Below are positions 487 through 41,429 of a stretch of DNA of 44,849 nt, piece by piece; positions within the stretch are counted from its first letter, which is position 1, and the number at the start of each line of letters is the position of its first letter. Source of the DNA: Desulfamplus sp. (lineage in GTDB: Bacteria; Desulfobacterota; Desulfobacteria; Desulfobacterales; Desulfobacteraceae); contig JADGBC010000009.1 in the NCBI GenBank assembly GCA_015231705.1, positions 1-44,849 on the forward strand. Direction: 5' to 3'. The notes beneath the pieces were generated by a model. It was not told where the DNA came from. It worked only from the letters and a program-made list of their open reading frames with translations, and did not search any database. The position numbers and the translations under genes were made by a program.

Positions 487-2700
487 TTACCTCTTCATGC
501 CAATCACGGTATTCATCATGTCATCCACTGTTGTAATGGTTTTTGAATTTGCCTGAAAACCCCTTTGGGTTGTTATCATATTGACAAACTCTTCAGAGAT
601 ATCAACATTGGACATCTCAAGAGAGTTGGGGCTAAGGGTTCCAAGTCCGTTTTCGCCTGGCCTGTTGGTAATAGCGGCACCGCTGTCCCGAGTCTCACGG
701 AAAAGGTTTCCTCCAACACTGAAAAGTCCGTTATTATTCAGAAATTTTGCAAGTCCTACACGAAACAGTGGAATAAGCTCTCCATTGGAATACTGTCCCG
801 TAATGGTGCCGTCAATTGAAATATCAACACCTTCAAGACTTCCTGCTGCGTAGCCGTCAGCATCCTGATATACAGTGGTTGATGCCTTTGCAAACTGGGT
901 AGTTGACATGGCATCTTTTGTAAAAGATTGATTAAGATATTGGGTTCCCATATCAAGCTTAATCATGGATTCTGTTACCCCGAACTCTCCACCAAGAAAA
1001 TCTGTCTTGAAATTAAAATATCCTGTCTCTTCAAGTTCTGATTTATCAATTTTTGTCCATGCGTTTGACCCGTCAAGGCTAAAAGAGATGCTGCTTGGAT
1101 TGATTAAAGAGTCCTTAAAGCTGAAAACTATGTCATCAGTGTCGTTATTTCCTTTTATATCAAGATTTACGAGTGCTTTGGTTTTATCTCCAGAAAGAGT
1201 TGCATTAGGATAAAGCAAATCAGGAGCAGTACCGGCAACAGTAGCAGGCACTGCCTGGGTAAAGAGTGTAGATGGAGCCACCGGAGGCGTGAGAGCAGGT
1301 GTATATGTAATAACACCAGGTATATAAGGAGGTCCGGCAACAGGAGCAGTCATCGTGCCCCATACCCACATACCACCATTAGTAACGGGATCCCAAACAA
1401 TATTTACAGGGGCTAAATCTTTTGTAATAACTGTTGGATCATTTATCTGTATGGTAGTATTTCCATCTACGGTATCTCCCTGATATGTATCTCCAGCGAC
1501 GCCCTGAAAATGAATATCTTTTTCAGCACAGATATCAAAATTAATTACGTTACCTGTTGTCGCTGGTTTGTCCAGCTGAACTTCAATGTCCACAGTTCCA
1601 TCATTATCCAGATCAATTAATATCTTTTGTTCACTGCTTCCTGGTAAAATAACGGCAGCATTAGGAGCAGTATTATAAGCTGCAACACCTGCCACAGGAG
1701 CCGTAGGAGGAGTTATTGTCCAGTACGGGGCAACAGTGCCGCTGGATGTCAAGGCAAAATTATAACCATCTTCTTTCATTTTATCGCTGTTGATAATTTT
1801 AAAATGGACATCTGTCTCTTTATTTTCTCCACCATTTGTATCAAGATTTCCAATTCTTCCATCAAACTTGAACATGGTAAGGTCAACAATGTTTCCGCTG
1901 CTTTTGCTGAAAGTAATAGTTCCTTTAGCTAAAAGCCCCTGCCCCTCAGTGCCTTGAACAAGAGCTCTTTTATCATCTATCGGATTAGTGGCAATCATGT
2001 ATTCCCATTCATCACCATTAGCAGATGTTCCTTTTTTATCATAATAAATGGTTACATCATGAGTGCTTCCCAATGAATCATAAACCTTGACAACTGTTTG
2101 ATAGCTGTATTTAGAACTTTCCATGTTTGTTATGGCTGTTAAACTTCCATCCCAGAAATTTGCCATAACATCTGCTTGACTATCTGCCTTGGAATTAAGA
2201 TTTGATATAACCGTCATCTCGGTAGTTTTGGCAGGAGGAGATGTGAAACTTGTCATAATAATATCGCCTATTGCCCCGACATCCTGACCAGTCTCAGAAT
2301 CTAAATTCCATCCCTGCACAATATAGCCTTGTGGGTTTACAAACTGACCTGTATCGTCGAACTTGAAATTACCTGCTCTTGTATATAGAGATCCACCACC
2401 TTCATTTTTAACAATAAAAAAACCATCCCCACCAATTGCAAGGTCTGTTGAATTACCGGTACTTTGCAGTGAACCTTGATCAAAAACTTTGGCAACCTCT
2501 CCTATACCAACGCCTCTTCCCACCTGACCCGTACCTGCCTGGGTTGCAATATTCTGGCTGAGTGTATCAGCAAAAGCTGCGGTACCTTTTTTAAATCCCA
2601 CAGTATTTGAATTGGAAATATTATTACTTATAACCTGCATGGTATTACCCATGTTGATCAATCCGCTGGTGCCTGTATATAGTGAACTTGATAGTGCCAT
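487..2700 (-). CDS. flgE: Flagellar hook protein FlgE
   Basis: N-term SSLYTGTSGLINMGNTMQVISNNISNSNTVGFKKG and C-term LEMSNVDISEEFVNMITTQRGFQANSKTITTVDDMMNTVIGMKR are typical of FlgE. Confidence 0.95.
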   Translation of the reverse strand: MALSSSLYTGTSGLINMGNTMQVISNNISNSNTVGFKKGTAAFADTLSQNIATQAGTGQVGRGVGIGEVAKVFDQGSLQSTGNSTDLAIGGDGFFIVKNEGGGSLYTRAGNFKFDDTGQFVNPQGYIVQGWNLDSETGQDVGAIGDIIMTSFTSPPAKTTEMTVISNLNSKADSQADVMANFWDGSLTAITNMESSKYSYQTVVKVYDSLGSTHDVTIYYDKKGTSANGDEWEYMIATNPIDDKRALVQGTEGQGLLAKGTITFSKSSGNIVDLTMFKFDGRIGNLDTNGGENKETDVHFKIINSDKMKEDGYNFALTSSGTVAPYWTITPPTAPVAGVAAYNTAPNAAVILPGSSEQKILIDLDNDGTVDIEVQLDKPATTGNVINFDICAEKDIHFQGVAGDTYQGDTVDGNTTIQINDPTVITKDLAPVNIVWDPVTNGGMWVWGTMTAPVAGPPYIPGVITYTPALTPPVAPSTLFTQAVPATVAGTAPDLLYPNATLSGDKTKALVNLDIKGNNDTDDIVFSFKDSLINPSSISFSLDGSNAWTKIDKSELEETGYFNFKTDFLGGEFGVTESMIKLDMGTQYLNQSFTKDAMSTTQFAKASTTVYQDADGYAAGSLEGVDISIDGTITGQYSNGELIPLFRVGLAKFLNNNGLFSVGGNLFRETRDSGAAITNRPGENGLGTLSPNSLEMSNVDISEEFVNMITTQRGFQANSKTITTVDDMMNTVIGMKR

Positions 2701-2787
2701 GATGATACCCTCCCTTTTATTTTTTAATCACACGGCCATTTATTATATTATAACATGCCGAAATGAATAATAGTCCTTAATTTTTTG

Positions 2788-3897
2788 CTATTTAATCTCT
2801 GTTACAGACGCCATACTTACCAGATCACCATCTTTACCAACCACAAGATACTGAGTACCGTTTACATATTTGATTCCAGTCACGTCCCCTGATTCAGACA
2901 TTTTTGCCTCCCCTGATCCTGATTTAATAGAATAAGAGTAGAGTCCGTCTGAAACAGGGTTGCCAGAGCTGTCTGTGCCATCCCATTTGACCTCATTCTG
3001 ACCAGCAACTGTATTTTCTGCAAGGATCTCAACAGTGTTTACAACATTACCCTTTGAATCAAGAATATTAATAACAACATTTTCCTGCTTTGTCAGGTCA
3101 AATTTCATACCACTTCCAGAGACACTATTTGCACCAACCGAGAAAAGATGGCTTGAATACGAAATGTTTTTACCAAGATAATCAAGTGCTGTCATTGATG
3201 TCTCCGCGGCATCCGCCTTGACATTAGAAACCTTAGTAATTGCATCTGGACTAAGAAGTACACCATCAATGTCAAGATAAGCCTTGCCATTCTGGTACGT
3301 AATCCCGTCCACTTTGCCAGTAATTGTTGTAGGAAGTGCAGCATATCCAGATCCGCTATTGGCAAGCACCTGGTAGGTATATGAACCATCTTCAACTATA
3401 TTGCCGCTATTATCTTTTCCGTCCCACTCAAGGCGATACTCACCAGCAGTTTTCTGTCCTGGATAAAGGGTTCTGACAACATGTCCTTGAGCATTGGATA
3501 TCGATACCATAACTTCAGAGGGGTTTGACAACTTGTAATATCCACCTGAAGGAGCACCTGATGTTACCTCTACAAAGTTAACATTTCCTGTAACTTCCTT
3601 TCCTATATAGGCTGATGCGTCAGTTTCAGAACTACTTGCAAAAGCGTCAGCCATGGATTGCATTGATTTATTTAAACCGATCAACTGCTCCAGTGATGAA
3701 AATTGAGCAAGTTGAGCAGAAAAATCACTTCCTTCCATAGGGTTTAAGGGATCTTGATTCTGCAACTGAGCAACCAGCATTTTAAGAAACGCCTCCCTTC
3801 CAAGATAATCGTCTGATTTTTCCTTTTCAACATCATTGCTTTTGTAGGAACCGGCAAGTTTTGCAAGGCTGCTGTTACCTGTTGCGTCTATTGTCAT
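2788..3897 (-). CDS. flgD: Flagellar hook assembly protein FlgD
   Basis: FLKMLVAQLQNQDPLNPMEGSDFSAQLAQFSSLEQL motif; FlgD Ig-like/Tudor region. Confidence 0.93.
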   Translation of the reverse strand: MTIDATGNSSLAKLAGSYKSNDVEKEKSDDYLGREAFLKMLVAQLQNQDPLNPMEGSDFSAQLAQFSSLEQLIGLNKSMQSMADAFASSSETDASAYIGKEVTGNVNFVEVTSGAPSGGYYKLSNPSEVMVSISNAQGHVVRTLYPGQKTAGEYRLEWDGKDNSGNIVEDGSYTYQVLANSGSGYAALPTTITGKVDGITYQNGKAYLDIDGVLLSPDAITKVSNVKADAAETSMTALDYLGKNISYSSHLFSVGANSVSGSGMKFDLTKQENVVINILDSKGNVVNTVEILAENTVAGQNEVKWDGTDSSGNPVSDGLYSYSIKSGSGEAKMSESGDVTGIKYVNGTQYLVVGKDGDLVSMASVTEIK

Positions 3898-3920
3898 CTC
3901 TTAATCCTCCCTTAACCATA

Positions 3921-6236
3921 TCAGGCAACAAAGTGAAGCATGCCATCTTCATCTGTCAAAAATTCAGAAGCTGAAGAACCATCACTATTACCCGTAAATA
4001 TTGAATCATGCTGGCCAGAATCCCTATTTCTCCCGGAGCCACTGTTTGACTGATTGGACTGGTTAGAGTGCTGACCCGAGTCTGCCAGGGACTGCCTGAA
4101 ATCACTGCCCATCTCAACATCAAAACTCTCAATTTTAATCCCACTATTTGCCAAAGATGCCTTAAGCTCATTGGCATGCCCTAAAAGGATATCTTTTGCA
4201 GCCTGATTCTCAGTCACAATACTCACTTTAAGTGTATCACCCAAGGTCTCTATTGTCATAAGAATTCGACCAAGCTCGGCAGGTCTTAGCTGGAGTTTTA
4301 TCTCGCTCTCCCCTCTGCTTAACGCCCTGGCAATACTCCTGCCTACCTGATTGGTAACATATGATGGAAGCAGTGATGAAGTTGCTTTGTCTTTAGCCAG
4401 GCTCGACGTACCATCTTTAGGGTCTCTTCCATCTGAGAAATTGCCGCCTGACTGATTGGAATCAAGTATATTGATTGTCTGTTTTCTCTCGATTCTGGAG
4501 GTCATCAAATCAACTTCTTTTTCATTATGACCTGATTTTGTATCCTGACCCATTCTTTTACCTGAAACCAGGGCCTCATTGTTATTGATCATATTGACAA
4601 GATCAGATAGTATCTCGCCGTTTCTGGCCCCTTCCGCGGCTGCTTTTCCTATAATTATATCAGATGATGTTTTAGCATTTTGCTCGTCTTGAACTTGAGA
4701 TAAACTCATTATTTTTTTCTGAAGTGTCTCATTCAACATATCAAAGGAGTTTTTTAATTTGTTTTTACCGGTATCTGCCTGAGAAGAAGCAAGATCAGAT
4801 TCAGAGGACGAAACACTTTTAGAGTCACTATTGAGTTTTGTCATTAGTTTATCTAACAGATGTTCCATCTCATCTGTATTAGTTGATTTTAGTGAACCGC
4901 TACTGTCATTTCCAAAACTATTTTCACCAGGCTGCTTAGTTCCAGATAAATTCATTGGCAACTGATGGTTAGATTTTTTCAAACTCCTGGAATCCATATC
5001 GGAATAGATAGACGCTCTTTCGCTATTGCCACTGTGTGCATCAATCTGACTTATGACTTTATTATCAATAAGAGAAAATGAATTGTTTCTGCTTTGATTA
5101 AAACCATTAATTGAAAGTTCATTCGGCAACCCTGAAAAATTGCTAGTTTTAAAAGAGTTGAGTGAGTTGTGCAAAGAGAGGCTATGACCAGTCAATACAT
5201 TACTACCACCCTTTTCAGATACACTTTTTTGCCTAAAATCCTCAAGAACAGACACAAAATCTCCTAGATTGATCTTTCCATTAACAGCACTCTTTTCTGC
5301 AGAGAGGCCAAGCTGATTGAATTGTCCATTAACAGCACTCTTTTCTACAGAGAGGCCAAGCTGATTGAACATGCCTTTTATGGATTCGGAATCAGATGAA
5401 GCCTTAAAGGTTGTACCTGTAAAAAATGCATTTTTCTGGAGTTTCTGGAGATCCAAAATCAGAGTGTTCAGATGAATCCCTTCTCCTTTTACCTCTGAGT
5501 CTGAAATAATAGAATCTGCAACGTCGTCAGGAATTCCAAGCGATTTCATAATAGAGGTAAAAAATGGGATTGATGATATATCCATTAAAACATCAAAATT
5601 CTTGCCATTGGAATCTGAACTGGTATCGTCTTGATCATCTTTTATATCTATAGAAAAAGCATCAATATCCATTGGAGAATCTGATGAGAATAGATCGTCA
5701 GGATCAAGGTTTAACAGTCCATCCATAAGATCTGACATAAATACATTACCGTCATCAGACTCGGATCTCAGCGTCTTTATGAGATCCGCAATCCTTGATT
5801 GGGGAAAGCCAGCCTTAATAAGCATTGACTTTATTGTTTCAAGTGCATCTTCATCCAGAGATATTGCTTTCAAGTCATTATGCCCGGATGCCATCAGGTA
5901 TTGTTTAAACTTTGTTAAAAACTCAAATCCCTGTGTATTCTTTACATCTTTCAAAAGATCCATTTTGGCATCTTCTGATAAAACATCAATCTCAGAAGAA
6001 GTTGCCCCTACAGTTGGATTATTACTGCCTGTCAGAGCTCCTTGACCACCAACGGTTGATAGCAAATTCTGCTTAATGCCATTCTTGGCAAGCATCTGAT
6101 GAAGTTTGTTCAAAAAAAGGTTGGAAGCCGAATCACTGTCAGCAAAATTCTGACCGGAAAGGGAAGAAGAGTCAACTGATCCTGATTTAAAACCTTTGTT
6201 CATGAATAGTTGAGGGGTAACAAAATCGAAATTCAT
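3921..6236 (-). CDS. fliK: Flagellar hook-length control protein FliK
   Basis: C-terminal ESEIKLQLRPAELGRILMTIETLGDTLKVSIVTENQAAKDILLGHANELKASLANSGIKIESFDVEM; position beside flgD. Confidence 0.88.
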   Translation of the reverse strand: MNFDFVTPQLFMNKGFKSGSVDSSSLSGQNFADSDSASNLFLNKLHQMLAKNGIKQNLLSTVGGQGALTGSNNPTVGATSSEIDVLSEDAKMDLLKDVKNTQGFEFLTKFKQYLMASGHNDLKAISLDEDALETIKSMLIKAGFPQSRIADLIKTLRSESDDGNVFMSDLMDGLLNLDPDDLFSSDSPMDIDAFSIDIKDDQDDTSSDSNGKNFDVLMDISSIPFFTSIMKSLGIPDDVADSIISDSEVKGEGIHLNTLILDLQKLQKNAFFTGTTFKASSDSESIKGMFNQLGLSVEKSAVNGQFNQLGLSAEKSAVNGKINLGDFVSVLEDFRQKSVSEKGGSNVLTGHSLSLHNSLNSFKTSNFSGLPNELSINGFNQSRNNSFSLIDNKVISQIDAHSGNSERASIYSDMDSRSLKKSNHQLPMNLSGTKQPGENSFGNDSSGSLKSTNTDEMEHLLDKLMTKLNSDSKSVSSSESDLASSQADTGKNKLKNSFDMLNETLQKKIMSLSQVQDEQNAKTSSDIIIGKAAAEGARNGEILSDLVNMINNNEALVSGKRMGQDTKSGHNEKEVDLMTSRIERKQTINILDSNQSGGNFSDGRDPKDGTSSLAKDKATSSLLPSYVTNQVGRSIARALSRGESEIKLQLRPAELGRILMTIETLGDTLKVSIVTENQAAKDILLGHANELKASLANSGIKIESFDVEMGSDFRQSLADSGQHSNQSNQSNSGSGRNRDSGQHDSIFTGNSDGSSASEFLTDEDGMLHFVA
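5278..5371. repeat. 48-bp tandem duplication inside fliK
   Basis: CCATTAACAGCACTCTTTTCTGCAGAGAGGCCAAGCTGATTGAA repeated at 5326 with one mismatch (peptide NQLGLS[V/A]EKSAVNG). Confidence 0.92.
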
Positions 6237-6459
6237 GGCATCACCTTTATAATAGTTATTGTGTTGGAAGATATTAAAAGCAATGATTGTGCCACATCAA
6301 TAAGAAATATTTTTAATCATAAAATCAAGTCATTACACATTCCACTATCACTAATACTATCAACACAGAGTTGACTTTCATGAAGAAATTGCCTGTTATA
6401 GAGCCATATGGGAAAATACTGCATCCTGAAATAACTTCCAACACGTCTTACGGTTTGTC

Positions 6460-7164
6460 TCATTTTTTCTTTTGAGCAAGCCTGGCACTGATCTTTGATG
6501 CCTGCTCCATCTGGACAGCAGCAAGAATTTTTGAGGCAGGCTTAGGAGGCATACGGGCAACTATTTCTGCCGCCAGCTCCACATCCATTTTATCAAGAAT
6601 AGCAGCCGCATTTTTTATGGGCATTTTAGTATAAACTACTGAAAGGCTCTGTATCTTTATTTCGTATTCAGCCTCTTTTTGCTTTTCTTTATCTGACTTT
6701 ACCTTCTGGATAGCAGCTAAATCGTCCTGTATCTGCTTTTTCAAAGTTTCAAGTTTTGCAAGATTCTCATCAATTTCCTCTTTAAACTTGTCAAGTTCTT
6801 TTTTCTCCTGTTTAAGTGCTGCCTCTTCCTTTTCAAGCTTCTGTTTTCTCTCCTCAAGACCAATCAGCACAAACTTTGCAGGATCAGGGCATTCAGGACA
6901 TTCAGGGCATGGGGATGCACCTTCTGCCTTATCTTTTTCATCACCTTTCCCATCCGCTTTCTTTGCATCTGCCTCTTTAGAATCCTTTTTTTTGGCATTC
7001 TTATCACCTTTAGATTCTGTTTTAGCCTTGTCGTCAGCGGCAAAAGCAGAAACAGGAAAGCAGGCACTTAAAATAACACCTCTCATGGATAATTGAAATC
7101 CATATTGCGACATGAAATTGACTGTAAAAAGTACCGTCAATCCGACAGTAACCTTATGAAACAT
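6460..7164 (-). CDS. MotE/MgtE-N-like flagellar periplasmic protein (ORF track start at 7278 probably too long)
   Basis: Signal/TM, coiled coil, then YTKMPIKNAAAILDKMDVELAAEIVARMPPKPASKILAAV; overlaps the fliJ 3' end. Confidence 0.7.
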   Translation of the reverse strand: MFHKVTVGLTVLFTVNFMSQYGFQLSMRGVILSACFPVSAFAADDKAKTESKGDKNAKKKDSKEADAKKADGKGDEKDKAEGASPCPECPECPDPAKFVLIGLEERKQKLEKEEAALKQEKKELDKFKEEIDENLAKLETLKKQIQDDLAAIQKVKSDKEKQKEAEYEIKIQSLSVVYTKMPIKNAAAILDKMDVELAAEIVARMPPKPASKILAAVQMEQASKISARLAQKKK

Positions 7165-7612
7165 TCTCAGAAACCTCTCTTGCTTTCTTAAGAGAAGCGA
7201 TGTCGTCAGCTCTTTTTTGCTCTTCAGCTTGAAACTCTTCAAGATATTCACCCCTTTTTTTCTCCCTGAGACGTTCAATTACTTTTTTAGCTACGCTTTT
7301 ATTTGTCAATGCCTGCTGTTTGACTGCCTGCACTCTTTGAAGCTGTTCAAGTTCTTTACGTTTCAGCTCTATATCACTTTCAAGTGAATCAAGATAATCA
7401 TTGTACTGCCTAAACATCATTGAAGAGATCCCAGTGATCGTCTCCTGATCCACCTTATCTGCCAGAATCTGGAATGCCTGCTCCATCTGTAAAATCATCT
7501 CCTGTGCAGTCTTGACATCCATATATGCTTTAACATATTCTTGTTTGGCAATATTTTCAAGGTGTTCTCTGTATTTAAGAACCGGATGGAGCTTGAAATT
7601 AAATTTTTTCAA
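7154..7612 (-). CDS. fliJ: Flagellar export protein FliJ
   Basis: 152-aa coiled coil, FNFKLHPVLKYREHLENIAKQEYV, adjacent to fliI. Confidence 0.85.
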   Translation of the reverse strand: MKKFNFKLHPVLKYREHLENIAKQEYVKAYMDVKTAQEMILQMEQAFQILADKVDQETITGISSMMFRQYNDYLDSLESDIELKRKELEQLQRVQAVKQQALTNKSVAKKVIERLREKKRGEYLEEFQAEEQKRADDIASLKKAREVSENVS

Positions 7613-7627
7613 CCCTGATCCCCTCTG

Positions 7628-7698
7628 CTATTTTTTACCCTTTCAAGGAGAGGCATTTTCTACTATCTTTTACCCTTTGAAGGAGAAGCATTTTCTAC
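7628..7698. repeat. 35-bp period tandem repeat spanning the fliI stop codon
   Basis: CTATTTTTTACCCTTTCAAGGAGAGGCATTTTCTAC / CTATCTTTTACCCTTTGAAGGAGAAGCATTTTCTAC (33/36). Confidence 0.92.
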
Positions 7699-9009
7699 TT
7701 TAAGAACACTGGTGAGTTCCGCAATTCCTGTCTCCAGATCTATTCTCCGGTTCATATCCTGTCTTAAAAAATTGTCAATCGAAGGCATCAGTTTTTTTGC
7801 TCGGTCAATTCTCGGATTTGAGCCATCAACATAAGCACCTATAGAGATCATATCTTCTGCCCCTCTGTAAGTTGCCATGATATCAATTGCCTGCTGCCTT
7901 AGTTGAACATGATCCGGTTTTGCCACATCACGAAATACCCTGGAGACGCTTGCAAGGACATCAATAGCAGGATAGTGTCCTTTATTGGCAATGTCTCTTG
8001 ACAGAACAATATGCCCATCAACAATAGAACGAACCGTATCTCCTACCGGATCGTTAAGATCGTCACCCTCTACAAGCACCGTATAAATTCCGGTAATAGA
8101 GCCGCTGCCCTCAACATACCCTACGCGTTCGAGAAGTACCGGGATCTGAACAAAAAATGACGGGGTATAGCCTCTTGAGGTAGGAGGTTCTCCTGCAGCC
8201 AGCCCGACATCTCGTGAAGACATTGCAAAACGGGTGATAGAGTCAATAATCAAAAGCACATGCTTGCCCTGATCCCTGAAATATTCGGCAATAGTAGTTG
8301 CAAGATACGCCCCTCTCATCCTGACCAGAGGAGGCGTATCAGAAGTGGCTGCCACAACTACAGAACTTTTCATCCCTTCTGAGCCCAGAGTATGGTTGAC
8401 AAAATCCTTAACCTCTCTGCCACGCTCCCCTATAAGCCCTATCACTGTAACATCAGCACTGGTATGTTTGGTCATCATGCCCATAAGTACGCTCTTTCCA
8501 ACACCAGAACCTGCCATGATAGCCACACGCTGCCCCCTGCCAAGAGTAATCATAACATTAATGGCTGAGATACCGACATCAAGGGGTTCGTCAATGGATT
8601 TACGCTCCATTGGGTTCATTGGTTTGCCATAAAGAGAATATTTTGCAGTAGGGTAAAAAGAGCCTTTCCCATCAATAGGGTTGCCCATACCATCCACCAC
8701 CCTGCCAAGCAGACCATCTCCAACATCAGCAAGCGGGAGGTCAGCAAGAGGAATAATTCTGCTACCAGGCCCAATCCCCCTCATATCTCCATATGGCATT
8801 AAAAGCACCTTCTCTTCCTTAAAGCCGATAACTTCAGCACGAATCTCACTGCCATGATCATTTTTAATAGTGCAAAGACTCCCGATGCCAAGGCCAAGCC
8901 CATCGCCTTCGGCAATCAACCCGATTACCTTCGTGATTTTACCTTCAGGTTTCACAGTCACACAACTATCCACAACATTAAAATATTTCTCCCAGTTAAT
9001 TTCCATCAC
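7663..9009 (-). CDS. fliI: Flagellum-specific ATPase FliI
   Basis: Walker A MAGSGVGKSVLMGMM; LIGERGREVKDFV; DSITRFAMSSRDVGLAAGEPPTSRGYTPSFF. Confidence 0.97.
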   Translation of the reverse strand: MMEINWEKYFNVVDSCVTVKPEGKITKVIGLIAEGDGLGLGIGSLCTIKNDHGSEIRAEVIGFKEEKVLLMPYGDMRGIGPGSRIIPLADLPLADVGDGLLGRVVDGMGNPIDGKGSFYPTAKYSLYGKPMNPMERKSIDEPLDVGISAINVMITLGRGQRVAIMAGSGVGKSVLMGMMTKHTSADVTVIGLIGERGREVKDFVNHTLGSEGMKSSVVVAATSDTPPLVRMRGAYLATTIAEYFRDQGKHVLLIIDSITRFAMSSRDVGLAAGEPPTSRGYTPSFFVQIPVLLERVGYVEGSGSITGIYTVLVEGDDLNDPVGDTVRSIVDGHIVLSRDIANKGHYPAIDVLASVSRVFRDVAKPDHVQLRQQAIDIMATYRGAEDMISIGAYVDGSNPRIDRAKKLMPSIDNFLRQDMNRRIDLETGIAELTSVLKVENASPSKGKR

Positions 9010-9052
9010 AATTGATCCTGATTTGTTTCAAAATGCTTGAACATTTTGAAGA

Positions 9053-10189
9053 TCATGATAACCTGGCTCCCATGACACTTGTGAATACCTGCTCAAGCCT
9101 CGTTTGGATATCTGTCTCAACTTTGGCTTTTGAAGATTCAAGTTTGCATCCACCACGTTTCACCGAAGGGTTTGAGACGACGGCAACGCTTTTAAGACTC
9201 TTGACACGCTCAAAAAAGTCATCTTTTATCATCTCGACATACTCATAATCATCAGGAGCGATATTTAAAATGATCTCTTCCGGCTCCGGCATTGTCGCCA
9301 GGGCATTAAGTATAGATTCTCTTACTATTGTTTCATCCAGTTCGACCTTTGCAAACACAACTTTTTCAGCAATTTTGCAGATCAGCGAGAGCATTTTGGA
9401 CTCATGAGTTTTAACGGCATTGTGCCAGGCCTGATCCATTTTTTGAAAAATATCCTCAAGAGAATTGATTATTTCAAGTGCCTTTGCATCACTGACAACC
9501 CTGCCATCCTCCTCGCCCTTTTGAAAACCTGCATCATAACCCTCCTGCTCTCCTTTTTCCTGACCTGATTTATACCCCTCTTCCATGCCTCTGGCCAAAC
9601 CATCTTCATATCCTTTAGATGATCCCTCTTCCATGCCTCGAGATATACCCTCATCATATCCTTTGGCACTCCCCTGCTCAAATCCGTTTTGATAACCCTC
9701 TTCAAATCCCCGTGTAATCTCTGCAGCAGCATCGGAAGAAAGTGTTACCGCATCTTTATCTTCATGGTTAACATCGGCATTATCAATATTGTGAATATTT
9801 GCACTTTCCTTTGAATCAAGGGCACTCATCCGGTGATCTTCCATCAAATTTTCATCCAGGCGAGTTTGACTGTCTATTGTGGGTTGATCAGTCAACAAGA
9901 TCATACCACTTTTGGCAGCCATTCTGTCGTCGAAATTAGTGATACCGGTCTTAAATGGGTGGAACTCATCATCAATATCCTGCTGGGTGCTTACAGACTC
10001 TTCGTCTGAACCATAAATCCTCATGAACTCATCAGATTCGCCTGTGGGAGTCTGTTCATAAAGCACTTTAAAAGAGTCTGAATCTTCAAAATTTTCCTTG
10101 TTTTCTTTATATTTTTCGCTTCCACATTGATCAAATACTGTAACATGCCACGGGTGGAATGAGTCATCATCTTGATTTTTATCAGCCAA
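9053..10189 (-). CDS. fliH: Flagellar assembly protein FliH
   Basis: GxxxG-type repeats followed by ALEIINSLEDIFQKMDQAWHN...EKVVFAKVELDETIVRESILNAL; located between fliG and fliI. Confidence 0.85.
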   Translation of the reverse strand: MADKNQDDDSFHPWHVTVFDQCGSEKYKENKENFEDSDSFKVLYEQTPTGESDEFMRIYGSDEESVSTQQDIDDEFHPFKTGITNFDDRMAAKSGMILLTDQPTIDSQTRLDENLMEDHRMSALDSKESANIHNIDNADVNHEDKDAVTLSSDAAAEITRGFEEGYQNGFEQGSAKGYDEGISRGMEEGSSKGYEDGLARGMEEGYKSGQEKGEQEGYDAGFQKGEEDGRVVSDAKALEIINSLEDIFQKMDQAWHNAVKTHESKMLSLICKIAEKVVFAKVELDETIVRESILNALATMPEPEEIILNIAPDDYEYVEMIKDDFFERVKSLKSVAVVSNPSVKRGGCKLESSKAKVETDIQTRLEQVFTSVMGARLS

Positions 10190-10218
10190 AACAAACCTCC
10201 TCTGTCTGATGCACCAAG

Positions 10219-10318
10219 TTGATATCAGACAGATAGATACTCCTACATATATTGAACTGAGTTGTTATCAGACAAGAGACATATCCCTCTATCTGATTTA
10301 TTGACTTGATATCATACA
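10219..10318. repeat. Three direct repeats at 43-44 bp spacing, the last overlapping the fliG stop
   Basis: TTGATATCAGACA (10219), TTGTTATCAGACA (10262), TTGATATCATACA (10306). Confidence 0.7.
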
Positions 10319-11334
10319 AGCACATCATCCTTGCCCTTACCACCTAATGTAATGGTTCCATCTGCTTCAAGTTCCTTGGCTGCACGTACAATTGCCTGCT
10401 GAGCCTCTTCAACCTCAGCCAGCCTGACAGGCCCCATGGAGTCCAGATCATCCTTGAGCATCTCTCCTGCACGCTGGGACAGATTGGAAAATATCTTCTT
10501 TCTCATCTCTTCGGTTGCTGTTTTCAGAGCATATGTAAGTTGTTGTCCCTCAACCTTCTTGAGAATTTCTCTCATTGCACGATCATCAATTGCAACCAAA
10601 TCCTCAAACACAAACATCATCTTACGAATATCATCTGCCATATCCTGACTATCTTCTTCCACCTGCTCCATGATAATATCTTCTGTAGCCTTATCCACAC
10701 CATTGATAATATTCACAAGTACACCAACACCTCCAACCTTTCCACCAGGCCCGACAGCTCCGCTCAATTCCATCTTAAGTGCCTCATCAACATCACGGAC
10801 AACATCCTCAGAAATTTGACCAAGTTTTGCAATTCTAAGGGCGATATCTCCCTTTTTATCATCTGGGACCGCCATCAAAATCTCGGATGAAATTTCAGCT
10901 GGCATATGGGCAAGAATCATGGCTATTGTCTGGGGATGCTCACCCACAATATAACCGGCAAGCGTGCCGATATTGACATCTCTGCTCCAGATAAACGGTT
11001 TGGCACGCCTTTTTCTGGCAAGATCTTCAAGAACAGCGTGTGCCCTGTCACCTGGAAGGCTTTTGGTAACCACCTGCCTGAGAAATGATTCCCCTTCAAT
11101 CAGCATTTTAAGCTCACCTTCAAACTTAACCACAAAGTCCTTAGAAACCACCTCAAGCATCTCCGGCGTTATCTCATCAATACGTGACATCTCCAGGGCA
11201 ATACTGCTCATCTGGCTCTCATTCATGGTGCTGAAAATATTTGATGCGTAATCTTCACCCATAGCAATCAGAAAAACAGCAGACTTTTGTGCTCCATTCA
11301 TTTTTGCAGGATCAATTTTGCCCGCTTTGGCCAT
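10312..11334 (-). CDS. fliG: Flagellar motor switch protein FliG
   Basis: GAQKSAVFLIAMGEDYASNIFSTMNE; EHPQTIAMILAHMP; MFVFEDLVAIDDRAMREILKKV. Confidence 0.97.
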   Translation of the reverse strand: MAKAGKIDPAKMNGAQKSAVFLIAMGEDYASNIFSTMNESQMSSIALEMSRIDEITPEMLEVVSKDFVVKFEGELKMLIEGESFLRQVVTKSLPGDRAHAVLEDLARKRRAKPFIWSRDVNIGTLAGYIVGEHPQTIAMILAHMPAEISSEILMAVPDDKKGDIALRIAKLGQISEDVVRDVDEALKMELSGAVGPGGKVGGVGVLVNIINGVDKATEDIIMEQVEEDSQDMADDIRKMMFVFEDLVAIDDRAMREILKKVEGQQLTYALKTATEEMRKKIFSNLSQRAGEMLKDDLDSMGPVRLAEVEEAQQAIVRAAKELEADGTITLGGKGKDDVLV

Positions 11335-11367
11335 CAGTAACCCTCCTTATTTTCCTTACGACTTCAA

Positions 11368-13134
11368 TCATTGTCCATCTTTCTTTTCTTCCACTTCGGT
11401 CAGCCACCCTTTTATTATATTGGCCGAACGTTCAATATTGGACTTGGCCAGATAGGCTGCTTTTTCAGAAACTTTGATACTGGACAGATATATTTCTCGA
11501 TCTGCAGATGGAAGTGCGGCAATAAAGGCATCTCTCTCTTCGAGTGACATGGCATTAAGAATATCCTTCTGTGCCTGGGGATCAAGCTCAATAAACGTGG
11601 GCTCTGGCTCTTCCTCCTCTTCTTTGGCAGCCTGTTCAAGCAGCTCCATCTCCTTGGGATCGGGCTGGGGAAGTGCCGCCTGCTCCGCACTTGTCTGAAT
11701 ATCCTTTGCTGTTTTTATAATTGGTCTGATAACAAAAAGGAACAGTAAAATAATAAGCAGTACGTTTGCAATTGTTCTGCCATACTCTTTCTGCACAAAA
11801 CGCCATCCCCCGAGGTCTGGTTCAGCCTTACCCATCTCATCAATCGATGCAAAAGGAAAGCTTTCAACAGAGATTTGGTCATCCCGATCCTCATTGAATC
11901 CTACAGCTTTTCCCACAACATCTGAAAATTGCTTCATCTCTTCATCTGATCTTGGTACATAGTTTTTTACACGATTACCGCTTTCATCGGTTTTATATTC
12001 ATACTTTCCATCAATAACTGCAGCAACAGAGACTCTTCTTATAACAGCCATAGGCTTGATTGTCTCGCTTACTCTTCGGCTTATTTCATAGTTGACCGTA
12101 TCATCAGATTTTTTAACTTCTTCTATGTTTTTGGTTGCGTTTGGATCCTCATTTGTAATTGGATTTACACTGGATGGTGTTCCTTTATCTTCGCTGCCTT
12201 TACGGGCAGCCTCTGTCATCTGCTTCTTGCTTCTTATAAATGTATTGTTTTTATCTAACGGGTCATATATCTCTTCATTCATGCTGTTGGTGGTAAAATC
12301 CATATCAGAAACAACACGGACAATTGCCTTGTCTTTACCTACAACCCGTTCCAGCATGGTCTGAATACGGTCAGCAAGCTCTGTCTCATAACGCTCCTTA
12401 TATTGATACTGGGTATCTGCAAGCTTCTTTACTTTATCTTGCTCCTCTTGTTCTTTCTTCTGTGCCCTTTTATCTTCCATGGTTTTTGCTTCAAAAAGGA
12501 TTCTGCCTGTGGTATCGACAATGGTGATAAGCTCTGGTGTCAAATCCTCGATTGCACTTGCAACAAGATGGGCAATTGATGCTATCTGTTCATCTTCCAG
12601 ATCAGATTTAAGTTCAAGAAGGATTGATGCCGAAGGTTTTTTTGTCTCCTCCACAAAAACAGAATCCTTGGGCAGAACAATCATTACCTTGGCATCCTTG
12701 ACCTCTTCAAACGCACGTATAGTTCTGGCAAGTTCTCCTTGAATAGCACGCAGTTTATTTACTTTCTGAACAAACTCGGTTGTTCCGAAATCTGTTTTGT
12801 CAAAAATTTCATATCCCACACCAGAACCTTTAGGAATCCCCTCCTTTGCCAAAGCAAGACGCACATCATACACCTGGGCCTCAGGAACAAGAATAGTTTT
12901 TCCCCCATTCTGGAGTTTATAGGGGGTCTTGTTCTCTTTGAGTTTTGCAACTATGGTGGATGCATCCTCTTCTGACAGCTCTGCATAGGCGGCTTTAAAC
13001 TCTACCTTGTTTGCCCAGACAAACATGGTTATAAAACCGGAGATCATAACCAACACCAGAGAGCCCAGGGCAATTTTTTTATAAAGAGACATCTCCTTAT
13101 ATATTTTGACAACTTGTTCAAAAAAAGGATTCAT
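11368..13134 (-). CDS. fliF: Flagellar MS-ring protein FliF (ORF track start at 13170; likely start MNPFFEQ at 13134)
   Basis: VGYEIFDKTDFGTTEFVQKVNKLRAIQGELARTIRAFEEVKDAKVMIVLPKDSVF. Confidence 0.96.
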   Translation of the reverse strand: MNPFFEQVVKIYKEMSLYKKIALGSLVLVMISGFITMFVWANKVEFKAAYAELSEEDASTIVAKLKENKTPYKLQNGGKTILVPEAQVYDVRLALAKEGIPKGSGVGYEIFDKTDFGTTEFVQKVNKLRAIQGELARTIRAFEEVKDAKVMIVLPKDSVFVEETKKPSASILLELKSDLEDEQIASIAHLVASAIEDLTPELITIVDTTGRILFEAKTMEDKRAQKKEQEEQDKVKKLADTQYQYKERYETELADRIQTMLERVVGKDKAIVRVVSDMDFTTNSMNEEIYDPLDKNNTFIRSKKQMTEAARKGSEDKGTPSSVNPITNEDPNATKNIEEVKKSDDTVNYEISRRVSETIKPMAVIRRVSVAAVIDGKYEYKTDESGNRVKNYVPRSDEEMKQFSDVVGKAVGFNEDRDDQISVESFPFASIDEMGKAEPDLGGWRFVQKEYGRTIANVLLIILLFLFVIRPIIKTAKDIQTSAEQAALPQPDPKEMELLEQAAKEEEEEPEPTFIELDPQAQKDILNAMSLEERDAFIAALPSADREIYLSSIKVSEKAAYLAKSNIERSANIIKGWLTEVEEKKDGQ

Positions 13135-13217
13135 GGCAGTATTTCCCCGTTTTTTTAAATCTTGAATCACTGATCAAGTGGAAAACTACAGTCCGTAATT
13201 TAGGACGGTTTTGAAAT

Positions 13218-13290
13218 TTCTTCCAACTTTTCTTGCAACTGTTTCTTGCAGCTTCCTTACACCTGCTTCTTGCAGCTTTTTTACAACTGC
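13218..13290. repeat. 24-bp tandem repeat (about 3 units) spanning the fliE stop codon
   Basis: TTCTTGCAGCTTTTTTACAACTGC (13267), TTCTTGCAGCTTCCTTACACCTGC (13243), degenerate TTCTTCCAACTTTTCTTGCAACTG (13218). Confidence 0.85.
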
Positions 13291-13607
13291 ATGTTTATAA
13301 TCTCTTTATACGCCTCCATTGCCTTTGATTTAACCTGCATCAGAAGCCTTAAAGAGGTATCTGCCTTGCCAATTGCGAGCATACCCTCGTGAATCCCCAC
13401 TTCATCCTTCATAACTCCCTCGGTTGCCTCATCTGCTAAGTTTTGTTTTGAATTCACATCCTTGACAGCAAAATTAAGCCGCTCGGCAAAGGAGGGGTCA
13501 CGCCTTCCCACCCGAAGGTGAAGGGGCTCAGTATTCAACGAAATTTTCCCGATGCTTTTATCTATACCATTACTTATATTATTTTTAATACCTGATATGG
13601 GGGTCAT
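13281..13607 (-). CDS. fliE: Flagellar hook-basal body complex protein FliE
   Basis: FAERLNFAVKDVNSKQNLADEATEGVMKDEVGIHEGMLAIGKADTSLRLLMQVKSKAMEAYKEIINMQL. Confidence 0.93.
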   Translation of the reverse strand: MTPISGIKNNISNGIDKSIGKISLNTEPLHLRVGRRDPSFAERLNFAVKDVNSKQNLADEATEGVMKDEVGIHEGMLAIGKADTSLRLLMQVKSKAMEAYKEIINMQL

Positions 13608-13631
13608 GATAATTACCTTTATTGTTAAAAA

Positions 13632-14156
13632 TTATGATTTTCCGATCTCAAGAGCTTTAAGTATCATACTTTTTGTATTTGATAGAGCTGTAACACTTCC
13701 CTCATAAGCTCTTTTGGCCACAACCATATCTGCAACTTCGGTCAGATGATCCACGTTTGGCATCTTGACATATCCGGTGTTAGGATCAGCATCAGGATGA
13801 GCAGGATTATAAACCAGCCTGAAATCCTCTTGGGATTTTACTATTTCAACAACCTCCACACCAGTTCCGCTGCTTGGTTTGAATGGCTTGAACAGCTCTA
13901 TTGGTTTTATTTCAATATTAGCCACTCTATGTTTTTTAAAAAATTCCTCTTCCCTGATTTTTTTTTCAAGAACAGTCTCAAACTGATCAATATCTTTTCC
14001 CTTGAAGATAACCATCTGCCGACGATAAGGGCCTCCCTCATCAGTACGGGTAGTCTCCACATTAGCAAGGTTCTGAGCTATCAAATTCATTTTAGTCCGG
14101 TGTGCAGCAAGACCTGTGGCACTTACTCGCGATGCATTTAAAAGATCTGTAGCCAT
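13632..14156 (-). CDS. flgC: Flagellar basal-body rod protein FlgC (likely start MATDLLNA)
   Basis: LLNASRVSATGLAAHRTKMNLIAQNLANVETTRTDEGGPYRRQMVIF; MPNVDHLTEVADMVVAKRAYEGSVTALSNTKSMILKALEIGK. Confidence 0.95.
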   Translation of the reverse strand: MATDLLNASRVSATGLAAHRTKMNLIAQNLANVETTRTDEGGPYRRQMVIFKGKDIDQFETVLEKKIREEEFFKKHRVANIEIKPIELFKPFKPSSGTGVEVVEIVKSQEDFRLVYNPAHPDADPNTGYVKMPNVDHLTEVADMVVAKRAYEGSVTALSNTKSMILKALEIGKS

Positions 14157-14326
14157 ATTTACCACCTTCCTTTTCAATTCCACTTTATTAAATTCTTATC
14201 TCTGATTTTAGTGTTATTTTGGCAAGAGAATCTGAAAATCCTCTTTGGTTCTGGCTTGTCCAGTTTAGGTTACTGTTTTAAATTGCCTGTAATTGCAAAA
14301 AATTATCTACCAACCTCTTGAATCAA

Positions 14327-14406
14327 TTTATGTGAAAGTCTTTTAAAATAGCTGTAGTCATGGGACTTTCATTCTTCGTTGTGCCCACAAGAGCATGAGC
14401 GTTATC
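14327..14406 (+). repeat. Dispersed repeat family R1, short form (between flgB and flgC)
   Basis: TTTATGTGAAAGTCTTTTAAAATAGCTGTAGTCATGGGACTTTCATTCTTCGTTGTGCCCACAAGAGCATGAGCGTTATC; matches the other R1 copies. Confidence 0.85.
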
Positions 14407-14827
14407 TACCGCCCTCTTGAATCGAATGTTTTAAAAGAGTCATTTTTCTTAACAACATCTCGGTTGTGGAGCGATATTTGATGTTATTCTCTACAATGTT
14501 GTTCATCTCAGTATCAATATCAACAGAGTCCAGATGGTTGATATCCACAGATTCACTGATATACTCCTTTATGGAGAAAGGCTCATAAATTTCAGTTACG
14601 CCTGGAAAATGTTTAGGATTAGTCATACTCATAATTGGCGACGACGGAGGAGGAGGCTCTTCCATTGATTTTTTTAAAGTGGAGTTAAAATCAAGATCAA
14701 CAGGTTTATATCCTATTGTATTCATATTGGAGATATTTCCTGATATCAAATTGTGCCGTCTTGCAGATATATCAAGAGCATTAGAGAGCATTTTAAAGGT
14801 TGTGTCATATATTCTGGAATTGCTCAT
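14402..14827 (-). CDS. flgB: Flagellar basal-body rod protein FlgB (likely start MSNSRIYDTTF; upstream part of the ORF lies in a dispersed repeat)
   Basis: TFKMLSNALDISARRHNLISGNISNMNTIGYKPVDLDF; DIDTEMNNIVENNIKYRSTTEMLLRKM. Confidence 0.93.
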   Translation of the reverse strand: MSNSRIYDTTFKMLSNALDISARRHNLISGNISNMNTIGYKPVDLDFNSTLKKSMEEPPPPSSPIMSMTNPKHFPGVTEIYEPFSIKEYISESVDINHLDSVDIDTEMNNIVENNIKYRSTTEMLLRKMTLLKHSIQEGGR

Positions 14828-14849
14828 ACTGCCTCCTTTAAATATGTTC

Positions 14850-14944
14850 TTTATGTGAAAGTCTCTTGAAATAGCAGTAATCATGCGACTTTCATTCTTA
14901 GTTGTGGCCAAGAGCAATACCTCGCTCCGGCCGTGCCGGTTATT
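14850..14944 (+). repeat. R1 long form, upstream of flgB
   Basis: TTTATGTGAAAGTCTC...GCGACTTTCATTCTTAGTTGTGGCCAAGAGCAATACCTCGCTCCGGCCGTGCCGGTTAT. Confidence 0.9.
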
Positions 14945-15054
14945 CAGGAATTTCAATCCAACAGCAATTGCAGCAAAGCTGCTTATGTTCTTAAAAACTG
15001 GTAAAAAAACCTGGCCCTTAGAAGCAAATTTTCTATGTTAGAATAAATATATTT

Positions 15055-37432: not shown

Positions 37433-38092
37433 TCATTTTATTTTCAAGCTAAGCATATTTCCCAAATCAGCCATGCTCACGGCATGATAATGAGCAATTA
37501 ATGCTGGATTCTTAAAAGCGGTAAACCATGTGCCTGCCCCTTTAGCGGCAAGCTGATCATATTCTGAATCCCCTACAAATAAAATTTGTTCCGGTTTTAA
37601 ATTCAGAGCTGTCATTATTTTAACAAGCTCATCCGGTGCCGGTTTTGGATTTTTTACATCTGCGGCTGTAACCACCATCTCAAAAAGAGATTCCATGTCA
37701 TGTATTTTCAGAACATCGGCCATTGTATTTGTCCTGTTTGTAGCAATACATCTTTTGTATCCGCAACGCCTCAAACTCTCCAGAAGTTCATTTAATCCTG
37801 GTTCAACATTCATATACTGGACGAACCCGTGATAACCCATATCTTTCATAAAAGCATATACGCTCTCCATGGAGTCCATTTCAGGAAAAAGGTAGTTAAG
37901 AGCCTCCTTTACAGTGAACATGTGGACAAGCCTGAACTGATCATCACTGAGATTTGGCTTACCGAAATGGTCAAGTAGAGTATTATAGTACATCCGGTTA
38001 GCTTGGGCAGTATCAAAAAGAACGCCATCGCAGTCAAAAACCACAGCCTTTATTTTTTTTATATCTATCTCTAATTTGTTAGACAATGACAT
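37433..38092 (-). CDS. HAD-superfamily phosphatase (phosphoglycolate phosphatase-like)
   Basis: KAVVFDCDGVLFDTAQANRMYYNTLL; CIATNRTNTM; KPAPDELVKIMTALNLKPEQILFVGDSEYDQLAAKGAG. Confidence 0.88.
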   Translation of the reverse strand: MSLSNKLEIDIKKIKAVVFDCDGVLFDTAQANRMYYNTLLDHFGKPNLSDDQFRLVHMFTVKEALNYLFPEMDSMESVYAFMKDMGYHGFVQYMNVEPGLNELLESLRRCGYKRCIATNRTNTMADVLKIHDMESLFEMVVTAADVKNPKPAPDELVKIMTALNLKPEQILFVGDSEYDQLAAKGAGTWFTAFKNPALIAHYHAVSMADLGNMLSLKIK

Positions 38093-38131: not shown

Positions 38132-38917
38132 TTATTCAGTTATATTTCCAAATACATTAATTTTAATTTCAGGCTGAACGCTGCTGTCAGTTTCAAGTAG
38201 AATCGAATCAAAGTAACGACCAGCATTTTCCCTTATATTTAGCACAATTAGCTCCCAACTTCCGACGGGTATTTTTGATTGTCTAATCTGAACAGAAACA
38301 TTGGTACCATCGCTCAATTGCAATGATTTTACAGAAAACTGGTATTTTTCAACTGGTATTATTTTAACTGTCATCCCAATATGTTGAGATACAGAACCAG
38401 TAAGCCTGACCACATTTGGAGAGATACTTACCAGGGTCTCTACAGTACCGGAAATTTTCAACTCCTTGACCGAATTTGTAGTATCGTTTGTGTAAATCTT
38501 GATTATTTTGCTTAATGTTTTGCCCAGATAACCCTTTGTGTCAACCTTTATCTGTATCTTGCCCTCCCCACCCGGGGGAATTTTTCTGTCATAGGAGACA
38601 GCGGTACAACCTCAATCGGTTTTGACTTTCTTAATAAACAAAAAATCATTACCAATATTTCTAACTATAAAATCATGAACTACCAGAGCACCATCAGGTA
38701 CAGGTCTAAATACGAACTCAGGGTCTTTAAATTCCGCCTTGGGAGCTCTAATTTTCGCTTCTCCTGCAATTGCTGATTTAGATTCCACAAGATCTAAGCA
38801 AAGCATCGTTACAAGAGCAAATAAGGTAGCTGAAACGACAAAAGACACAAGCGACCCTGGTAAAATTCTTGTTTTATTTACACTTTTTGTTCTATTTACA
38901 CTTTTTGATGAACACAT
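38132..38917 (-). CDS. DUF1573-type exported protein, candidate selenoprotein: in-frame TGA (38614-38612) at the first Cys of the CGCT motif
   Basis: ORF-track pieces 38612..39121 and 38132..38461 are in the same frame and join as ...DFIVRNIGNDFLFIKKVKTD[TGA]GCTAVSYDRKIPPGGEGKIQIKVDTKGYLGKTLSKIIKIYTNDTTNSVKELKISGTVETL...; signal peptide near the N-terminus. Confidence 0.7.
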
Positions 38918-39044: not shown

Positions 39045-41429
39045 TTATAACTCAATAAGAAGTCCTCTGTTAAGCCAGCCGCACAGCTCCTTATCAGTAT
39101 GTATAATTTTTCGACCATCAATCGAAATAACTCTAACTGCCCCCATCAATGAATTTAACACCAGAATATTTTGCATTGCATAAAGTTCGGCAGGCATAAT
39201 CTTTTTTTTCACCACATCATAACCTGCATTGGTAAAAAGCGATAATGCCGCATTCAAGGTTACGCTTGGAAGAACATAATCTGAAAGAGGTATCATTACC
39301 TGACGATCCATAACAGATATCAGGCTTGTACTGTTTGTTTCAGAGACTGTGCCATCAGAATTGCATATAACAGCCTCATCCCGGCCATGTTTTTTTGCGT
39401 AAAGAGATGCTAAATAATAATACAAATAATTAAAAGATTTATGGACAGCCAACGGAGAGTGCCGCCTTTCCGGAAAAGTAATAAGATCAAGGCCATAATC
39501 TCTATATCCATTACAAGGTGACAGATCCTTATATTTAACCATGAGGCGATGATTGTAGGGACGTGCAAAAGCTGCTATAAAATCAGATTGTCCATCCACT
39601 GAGGGCATTAATTCACCCCCTTCCCCACGCTCTCCTCGTGCAAGCATAAGCTTTACTGCGGCAATCTTATGCTCAAGCCTGTTAACACAGATCAGTTTAT
39701 CAATCACCTCATGCCAGCTAATGCAGGGCAACTTTTCGTTAAACAGAGCATGCCAGCTTGAAGTAAATCTTTCAAGATGCTCTTTCAGGCGTAACACCCT
39801 ACCCTTTTGAACTCGTATGGTTTCAAACAGCCCCGCACCATATTGAAATCCTGTAAAATATGCTGGCACCATAACCTTGTTTTCATCCACAATTTTGCCA
39901 TTGAACCACGCTTTTCTCTCAGGCAGATCGATTTGAGACAAAGAGTTGGCAGATGTGGCCAAAGAATCTGTGCAAGAAGTCAGGGTATCCATAAGAGTCT
40001 TACCCTTGTGAAGGGTCTCTTCATACTCCTTTTCAGGGTCAGAATCAAAGACAATGCCGCCCCCTACTGAAAAGCCTATCTTGCCGCCTGCTACCACAGC
40101 AGTCCGTATTGCAATGGAAAGATCAAGCGTGTCATGAAAACTTATATAACCCACAGAACCTGTATAGACATGCCTTCTGACACTCTCCATTTCATCTATG
40201 ATCTCCATTGACCGGATCTTGGGACATCCGGTTATTGAGCCTCCCGGAAACGTGGCTCTAATAAGGTCCACGCTCGACTGACCGGAATCAAGGGTTGCTT
40301 CAACAATAGAAACAAGATGAAACACATTGTCATATGGTTCGAGACGTTTATGTTCTTTTACCTTTACAGTTCCACCTTTAGCCACTTTTCCAAAATCGTT
40401 TCTCATAAGATCCACAATCATGGAGAGTTCCGCATCATCCTTTAAACTGTTAAGAAGTGCATTGCCAAGAGCATTGTCATCAGTCTGGTTTGCCTTTTTA
40501 TTTACACCACGAGGCATGGTTCCCTTTATGGGACGAGTTTCAATAAGATTACCATTACGCTTGACAAACCGCTCAGGAGATGTGGAGACAACCTGATGGT
40601 CTCCGGCATTTACAAATGAAAAAAACGGGGCAGGATTCTTTTCAAACAATTCCAGAAACAATGTGTATGGGTCACCATGAAATTGGGCACTAAATCGCTG
40701 GGAGAGATTAACCTGATAGATATCACCGGCTTTAATATAATCAATTATCTTTGCAACAGCCTTGACATACTCCGGCTTTGAAAAATTTGATGTAAATCCA
40801 GAAGAGGATATGGAAAAATCTTTTATACCTTGTTCATCAGGCATGGAAGCAATGTCAATAGAATCAATATCAGAAGAATAGATATTCTGCATGCTGTGCC
40901 TGCGAGATAAAATTAATTCAATCTTCTCTACGGTATCTGTATGACGGTCATGGACAAGGATAACAGAAGGGGCACAAAGGTAGAGATTTGGCAGATTCTG
41001 GTCAATACATGTATTGGGCAACTGCTCTATTCTCTCTTTGAGATCATAGGCAAGATACCCGAAAAGCCCGGCTGTTACCGGACACAAGGATTCTTCCCAT
41101 GGAAATGAGCAAAGAGATACAAGTTCATCAACAACTTCAAGAGGATCTCCTGTAAAACAGAAACTGTCACCCCCTGTAGAAATATGTATACTATCATTTT
41201 TGGCTGTGATGGTAAGCCAGGTTTTTGCGGCAAGAATATTGTATCTTGCACAATCAAGCGAGGTGCCACTTAGAAGGATAACCGTACCCGGCTCATGAGC
41301 AAACTTTCTGACTGCCTCTGAAAAAGGCTTGGATAAATGCACCTGTGAACGTTTAATTGTTTCAATACGTGGAATAATATCAGCAAGATACGGAGGTGCA
41401 AACAAATGGTGGGCAGTAGAATCAGTCAT
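39045..41429 (-). CDS. pabBC: Fused aminodeoxychorismate synthase component I / 4-amino-4-deoxychorismate lyase (PabB-PabC)
   Basis: AGDIYQVNLSQRFSA; STSPERFVKR; ETRPIKGTMPRG; GSITGCPKIRSMEIIDEME; then class IV aminotransferase domain YGAGLFETIRVQKGRVLRLKEHLERF; VSETNSTSLISV. Confidence 0.9.
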   Translation of the reverse strand: MTDSTAHHLFAPPYLADIIPRIETIKRSQVHLSKPFSEAVRKFAHEPGTVILLSGTSLDCARYNILAAKTWLTITAKNDSIHISTGGDSFCFTGDPLEVVDELVSLCSFPWEESLCPVTAGLFGYLAYDLKERIEQLPNTCIDQNLPNLYLCAPSVILVHDRHTDTVEKIELILSRRHSMQNIYSSDIDSIDIASMPDEQGIKDFSISSSGFTSNFSKPEYVKAVAKIIDYIKAGDIYQVNLSQRFSAQFHGDPYTLFLELFEKNPAPFFSFVNAGDHQVVSTSPERFVKRNGNLIETRPIKGTMPRGVNKKANQTDDNALGNALLNSLKDDAELSMIVDLMRNDFGKVAKGGTVKVKEHKRLEPYDNVFHLVSIVEATLDSGQSSVDLIRATFPGGSITGCPKIRSMEIIDEMESVRRHVYTGSVGYISFHDTLDLSIAIRTAVVAGGKIGFSVGGGIVFDSDPEKEYEETLHKGKTLMDTLTSCTDSLATSANSLSQIDLPERKAWFNGKIVDENKVMVPAYFTGFQYGAGLFETIRVQKGRVLRLKEHLERFTSSWHALFNEKLPCISWHEVIDKLICVNRLEHKIAAVKLMLARGERGEGGELMPSVDGQSDFIAAFARPYNHRLMVKYKDLSPCNGYRDYGLDLITFPERRHSPLAVHKSFNYLYYYLASLYAKKHGRDEAVICNSDGTVSETNSTSLISVMDRQVMIPLSDYVLPSVTLNAALSLFTNAGYDVVKKKIMPAELYAMQNILVLNSLMGAVRVISIDGRKIIHTDKELCGWLNRGLLIEL

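Follow-up and report, generated by a model that had tools for sequence, protein, structure and literature searches.

A Desulfamplus member of the OS_HP2/DUF1573 selenoprotein family with two tandem RNA hairpins downstream of its in-frame UGA

Two reviews count the domain PF07610 (DUF1573) with the motif UGC among the selenoprotein families, and a 2008 ocean survey enters it as OS_HP2 (UxC). In its passage on the family, PMC13188914 credits OS_HP2 to Zhang and Gladyshev (2007) and to the Delta1 symbiont of Olavius algarvensis, and OS_HP2 also appears in passages of PMC9312934 and PMC2398784. The bacterial SECIS (bSECIS) model given in Fig. 2 of PMC13188914 has a loop of 3 to 9 nt with G in the first two loop positions, a stem of 4 to 16 bp, a spacing of 16 to 37 nt, and an MFE of at most -7.5.

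The window analyzed here is a stretch of 44,849 nt from a Desulfamplus sp. genome, a 3.6-Mb draft that is 75% complete. On its minus strand, the frame 38917-38132 contains one TGA (38614-38612) and, when this is read through, encodes 261 amino acids and ends with TAA, while under the bacterial code the DUF1573 frame is split at the TGA. The following features of the gene were identified:

38132..38917, minus strand: DUF1573/OS_HP2-family gene, predicted selenoprotein of 261 residues with Sec102, matching PF07610 and NF041425
38132-38134, minus strand: stop codon TAA of the gene in the read-through frame
38612..38614, minus strand: in-frame TGA, predicted selenocysteine U102, first residue of U-G-C-T
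38606..38614, minus strand: U-G-C (UxC) motif with U102 and C104, the sole conserved Sec/Cys residues of the mature protein
38441..38734, minus strand: PF07610 Ig-like (ASH/HYDIN-type) domain with the UxC motif
38795..38845, minus strand: N-terminal hydrophobic helix, residues 25-41 (AlphaFold2), putative export signal or membrane anchor

Re-reading of this frame reproduced the sequence and coordinates reported in the initial annotation, which had also claimed that the TGA takes the place of the first CGCT Cys in a DUF1573 protein with intact sequence on both sides. The motif region of the read-through product is TD-U-GCTAVSYDRKIPPGGEGK, the TGA lies at the position of that first Cys, and the PF07610 match (residues 62-159, E = 3e-19, 69.3 bits against a cut-off of 26.1) runs across it. 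The protein also scores 134.4 bits against the NCBIfam model NF041425, "OS_HP2 family (seleno)protein," which has a cut-off of 100. Judged by its sequence, the window gene is a further member of the known OS_HP2/DUF1573 selenoprotein family, which is itself not new; the domain, the Sec position (first of U-x-C), and the phylum are all those of OS_HP2, although the locus is absent from the examples named in the consulted parts of the literature on the family. The UGA at 38614-38612 of this predicted exported protein is almost certainly read as selenocysteine, a reading that draws on the TGA at the motif Cys, on the presence of selA, selB, selC, and selD, on the hairpins 3' of the UGA, and on the alternation with Cys in orthologues. 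SelB with Sec-tRNA(Sec) would bind the RNA 3' of the UGA, and Sec would be inserted at the UGA.

Two RNA hairpins lie 3' of the UGA:

38586..38601, minus strand: RNA hairpin A, CUGUC-UCCUAU-GACAG, at +11..+26 after the UGA with the loop at +16..+21
38564..38580, minus strand: RNA hairpin B, UUCCCC-CGGGU-GGGGAG, at +32..+48 after the UGA with the loop at +38..+42

Both had been proposed in the initial annotation and are seen as given in the centroid structure of the window RNA. In the folding of the 60 nt after the UGA, which it had suggested as a check, the energy taken alone is ordinary compared with dinucleotide shuffles (z = -0.04). The RNA evidence is comparative. Folding energies were calculated in 30-nt windows and compared with those of shuffles in which the protein sequence and the codon set of each gene are preserved. 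The Sec genes (n = 114) are more stable than their shuffles at +7..+36, with a mean ddG of -5.28 ± 0.22 kcal/mol, and again at +25..+60, with a ddG of about -3.6 to -3.9 ± 0.2 kcal/mol, the value for hairpin B being -3.92 ± 0.19 kcal/mol; the 30-nt window between the two stable regions (+0.60) is without excess stability. Hairpin A is selected at least as strongly as hairpin B. In the same shuffle test, the Cys homologues (n = 26) showed no comparable stability signal in either hairpin region. Both hairpins are present in 101 of the 101 Sec genes with constant spacing, a count of related sequences and not of independent events, and the main control is the contrast with the Cys homologues and with selD and fdhA. 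Pairing is kept through base changes in the commonest register of hairpin A, in which column 14-27 is U-A in 35 genes, C-G in 24, and U-G in 9 and column 15-26 is C-G in 50 and U-A in 15; in other lineages, the register of both hairpins shifts and the pairing is retained. The same two stability peaks recur in 11 Sec genes that lie outside the order. The selD genes (n = 30) and the fdhA genes (31 sites, 29 with the expected motif) of the order resemble OS_HP2 in having a single TGA and a selected RNA structure 3' of it and in being decoded by the same machinery, but they have one structural peak after the UGA in place of two. These comparisons show that the Sec genes, and not the Cys homologues, are under selection for two tandem hairpins beyond the demands of the protein and of codon usage.

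The two hairpins differ in their fit to the bSECIS model. Hairpin B of the window (6-bp stem, 5-nt loop CGGGU, G at loop position 2) satisfies the model at its distance limit, with a spacing of 37 and -7.9 kcal/mol, and hairpin A does not, its loop being without G. For hairpin B, this goes against the initial annotation, which had regarded neither hairpin as textbook. If stems have to be contiguous, 31 of the 114 relatives agree with the model at spacings of 16 to 37, rising to 42 of 114 if the spacing is allowed to reach 42; in most relatives, the loop of hairpin B begins at +38 to +41 and reaches or slightly exceeds the 37-nt limit. In most of them, this loop contains GGY/GGA flanked by CC and GG and is similar to the fdhA and selD loops (GGU and GGA) of that lineage. 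However, the likeness is partly dictated by a conserved Gly codon and is thus a lead to, not a proof of, SelB binding on hairpin B. Compared with a bSECIS, the OS_HP2 genes have in addition the strongly selected hairpin A, which lies at the usual SECIS distance without a loop G.

The OS_HP2 genes may, as a tentative reading, carry a two-hairpin insertion signal, with hairpin A at the SECIS position but without loop Gs and hairpin B, which has a GG-containing loop as in the SECIS of selD and fdhA, about 20 nt further. The folding of hairpin A could shorten the path, allowing SelB on hairpin B still to reach the ribosome; alternatively, hairpin A itself might act on the ribosome or on a release factor. 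If true, the two-hairpin signal would define a separate class of bacterial SECIS across the phylum. Within the selenocysteine reading, it is also quite conceivable, although not what we would expect, that only one hairpin matters for recoding, the other resulting from the conserved PPGGEG codons or from shared ancestry. Hairpin B sits on conserved, GC-rich Pro/Gly codons and is the only one in the window to follow the published loop rule, and a single hairpin suffices for selD and fdhA. However, A and B each exceed the synonymous-codon shuffles across the 114 genes and neither signal is found in the Cys homologues, both occur in every fixed-spacing Sec gene with pairing kept through the register shifts between lineages, and the two-peak pattern is repeated outside the order. 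The tandem arrangement is the less expected and more informative part of the system: no description of a double or tandem bacterial SECIS, in OS_HP2 or elsewhere, was found in the accessible portions of the open-access literature, a search that did not extend to the source paper of Zhang and Gladyshev (2007). The tandem hairpins offer a test case for bacterial Sec signals outside the single-hairpin model.

The window genome encodes the Sec machinery that the initial annotation had named as a check: profile searches found selA (581 bits), selB (359 bits, 641 amino acids; locus L003), selC, which is a tRNA-Sec with the anticodon UCA (73.8 bits), and selD. The selD gene has an in-frame TGA of its own, and fdhA also contains one. 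There are two DUF1573 genes in the genome, and in both the reading frame is interrupted by a single TGA, located at the same motif codon. The second is as follows:

805-2022 of L002 (L002 / L052, contig C110), minus strand: paralogue, second predicted DUF1573 selenoprotein, 406 amino acids

The paralogue shares 47% identity with the window protein over the aligned part and scores 135 bits against NF041425 (cut-off 100). It has an additional low-complexity tail at its C terminus and adjoins type II secretion genes (a gspG-like pseudopilin), which in the related locus L048 are followed by gspE/gspF. The UGA could instead specify cysteine or another standard residue if the Sec-type tRNA were altered or the codon reassigned throughout the genome. 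Many homologues have Cys at this site, and some bacteria have Cys-charged Sec-type tRNAs. This explanation is nevertheless highly improbable, given that the genome has a typical tRNA-Sec together with selA and selD, that in-frame TGA is limited to one codon per gene at established Sec sites (fdhA, selD, and OS_HP2), that congeners use ordinary Cys codons, and that a reassignment would not require a SECIS-type structure.

DUF1573 was found in 264 of 291 sampled genomes of the order, with a single TGA in most of the matches listed. The listed matches that are interrupted nearly all have one TGA and no second stop, the exception being one genome (G161) with a TAA besides the TGA, and the TGA is at the first motif Cys in every interrupted gene examined. 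Almost all named relatives are Desulfobacterales or Deltaproteobacteria, including Desulfospira joergensenii, Desulfobacter latus, and Desulfamplus magnetovallimortis; the Sec OS_HP2 genes L048 and L049 very probably belong to the last of these. Across the phylum, NF041425 is above its cut-off in 45 of 395 sampled genomes, mostly with one TGA. Gene callers that treat UGA as a stop split or truncate OS_HP2 proteins across much of the phylum, and an exported Sec protein of many sulfate reducers is therefore easily missed. Searches of viral contigs with the window protein gave no relative.

When 181 stretches were re-read at the DNA level, the motif codon was TGA in 127 genes and TGC/TGT in 26. 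The Cys-DUF1573 proteins, from the order and beyond, share the domain and motif with the window protein but have TGC/TGT in place of TGA and are without the selected hairpins; two of them are same-locus orthologues from the same genus:

L046:4149-4961: Cys orthologue, same genus and locus
L050:5692-6489: Cys orthologue, same genus and locus

These are the two closest orthologues of the window gene and have the same gene order, and the next closest have TGA. In a tree of 137 proteins with the motif residue masked, the window protein groups with L046 and L050 (support 98), and this clade joins the Sec proteins L049 and L179 (support 99). Parsimony gives 12 Sec/Cys changes on the tree, at least 7 of which are forced by well-supported branches. 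The window, L046, L050, L049, and L179 have a common gene order, (ribH/nusB region) - metallo-beta-lactamase-fold gene - pabBC-like fusion - DUF1573 - HAD, which indicates that a single chromosomal locus carries Sec in some genomes and Cys in others. The Cys/TGA alternation that the initial annotation had looked to is thus borne out, with Cys orthologues from the same genus placed inside a group of Sec genes, and the pseudogene outcome that it had considered is contradicted by orthologues that are full length, the Cys ones included, and free of frameshifts. Alternation of this kind with full-length Cys orthologues is a selenoprotein signature and argues against a decaying gene. On comparison with the paralogue and homologues, an in-frame TGA by chance is excluded. 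A nonsense mutation or sequencing error, making the gene a pseudogene or the TGA a misassembled TGC/TGT, would suit a metagenome-type draft assembly and the Cys of L046 and L050, but it is the least credible explanation of all since the paralogue and well over 100 homologues have TGA at the same codon, the window gene has no second lesion, and the 3' RNA is under selection only where the TGA is present. Selenocysteine is not indispensable at this site, as two congeneric species have Cys at the motif position, and so tight a Sec/Cys interchange inside one genus lets the contribution of selenium be compared cleanly in a natural setting.

The AlphaFold2 model of the protein (73-sequence alignment, mean pLDDT 87.9) is confident and consists of the helix at residues 25-41 followed by two beta domains, the PF07610 domain and a second one at about residues 163-260, with U102 immediately ahead of the strand that bears C104. 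An N-terminal hydrophobic stretch is present in 114 of 124 Sec relatives, and past residue 45, Cys other than that of UxC is absent in 102 of 124 Sec proteins. The structural matches from Foldseek are Ig-like domains of the ASH/HYDIN type and PDB 2qsv, a protein without known function; they reflect the generic ASH/HYDIN Ig-like fold only and carry no catalytic hint, and no solved structure was matched when the PDB was searched with the sequence profile. The N-terminal helix would export or anchor the protein, placing two Ig-like beta domains beyond it. These sequence features are best read as those of an exported protein whose UxC pair is redox-active or binds metal. Its likeness to thiol/selenol oxidoreductases is by motif alone, a U-x-C with no other conserved Cys, and the case for a redox role of the U102/C104 pair is evenly balanced. 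In such a role, a selenenylsulfide between U102 and C104 would probably form reversibly and serve to reduce disulfides, oxidants, or some other target in the periplasm, while the alternative would be the binding of a metal or metalloid.

The neighbors of the gene in the window are as follows:

37433..38092, minus strand: HAD-family hydrolase (PF13419), separated from the DUF1573 gene by a 39-nt gap on its 3' side
39045..41429, minus strand: upstream neighbor, pabB/pabC-like fusion, by reading of the sequence

Of the 127 Sec genes, 83 are followed on the same strand by a HAD gene at a distance of no more than 1.5 kb, and priA lies upstream of DUF1573 in 42 loci. Although conserved, both look cytosolic and housekeeping; they were set aside as functional clues and are treated as synteny only. 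The synteny of the pabB/pabC-like neighbor is kept in orthologous loci, Sec and Cys alike. An Rfam scan of the window gave no matches. The region 487-14956 of the window holds a long flagellar-like gene run (flgE-, flgD-, fliK-, fliI-, fliG-, fliF-, and flgB-like, from the translations).

Some relatives have neighboring DUF1573 copies. In L056, a Cys copy (6700-7809) adjoins a Sec copy, and its domain is apparently split in the motif region by a repeated insert (TKEDIPPDGEE-like). In L095, L138, and L103, tandem neighboring DUF1573 genes of one family (f67) occur as Sec and Cys or as Sec and Sec pairs, which suggests duplication followed by a Sec-to-Cys change.
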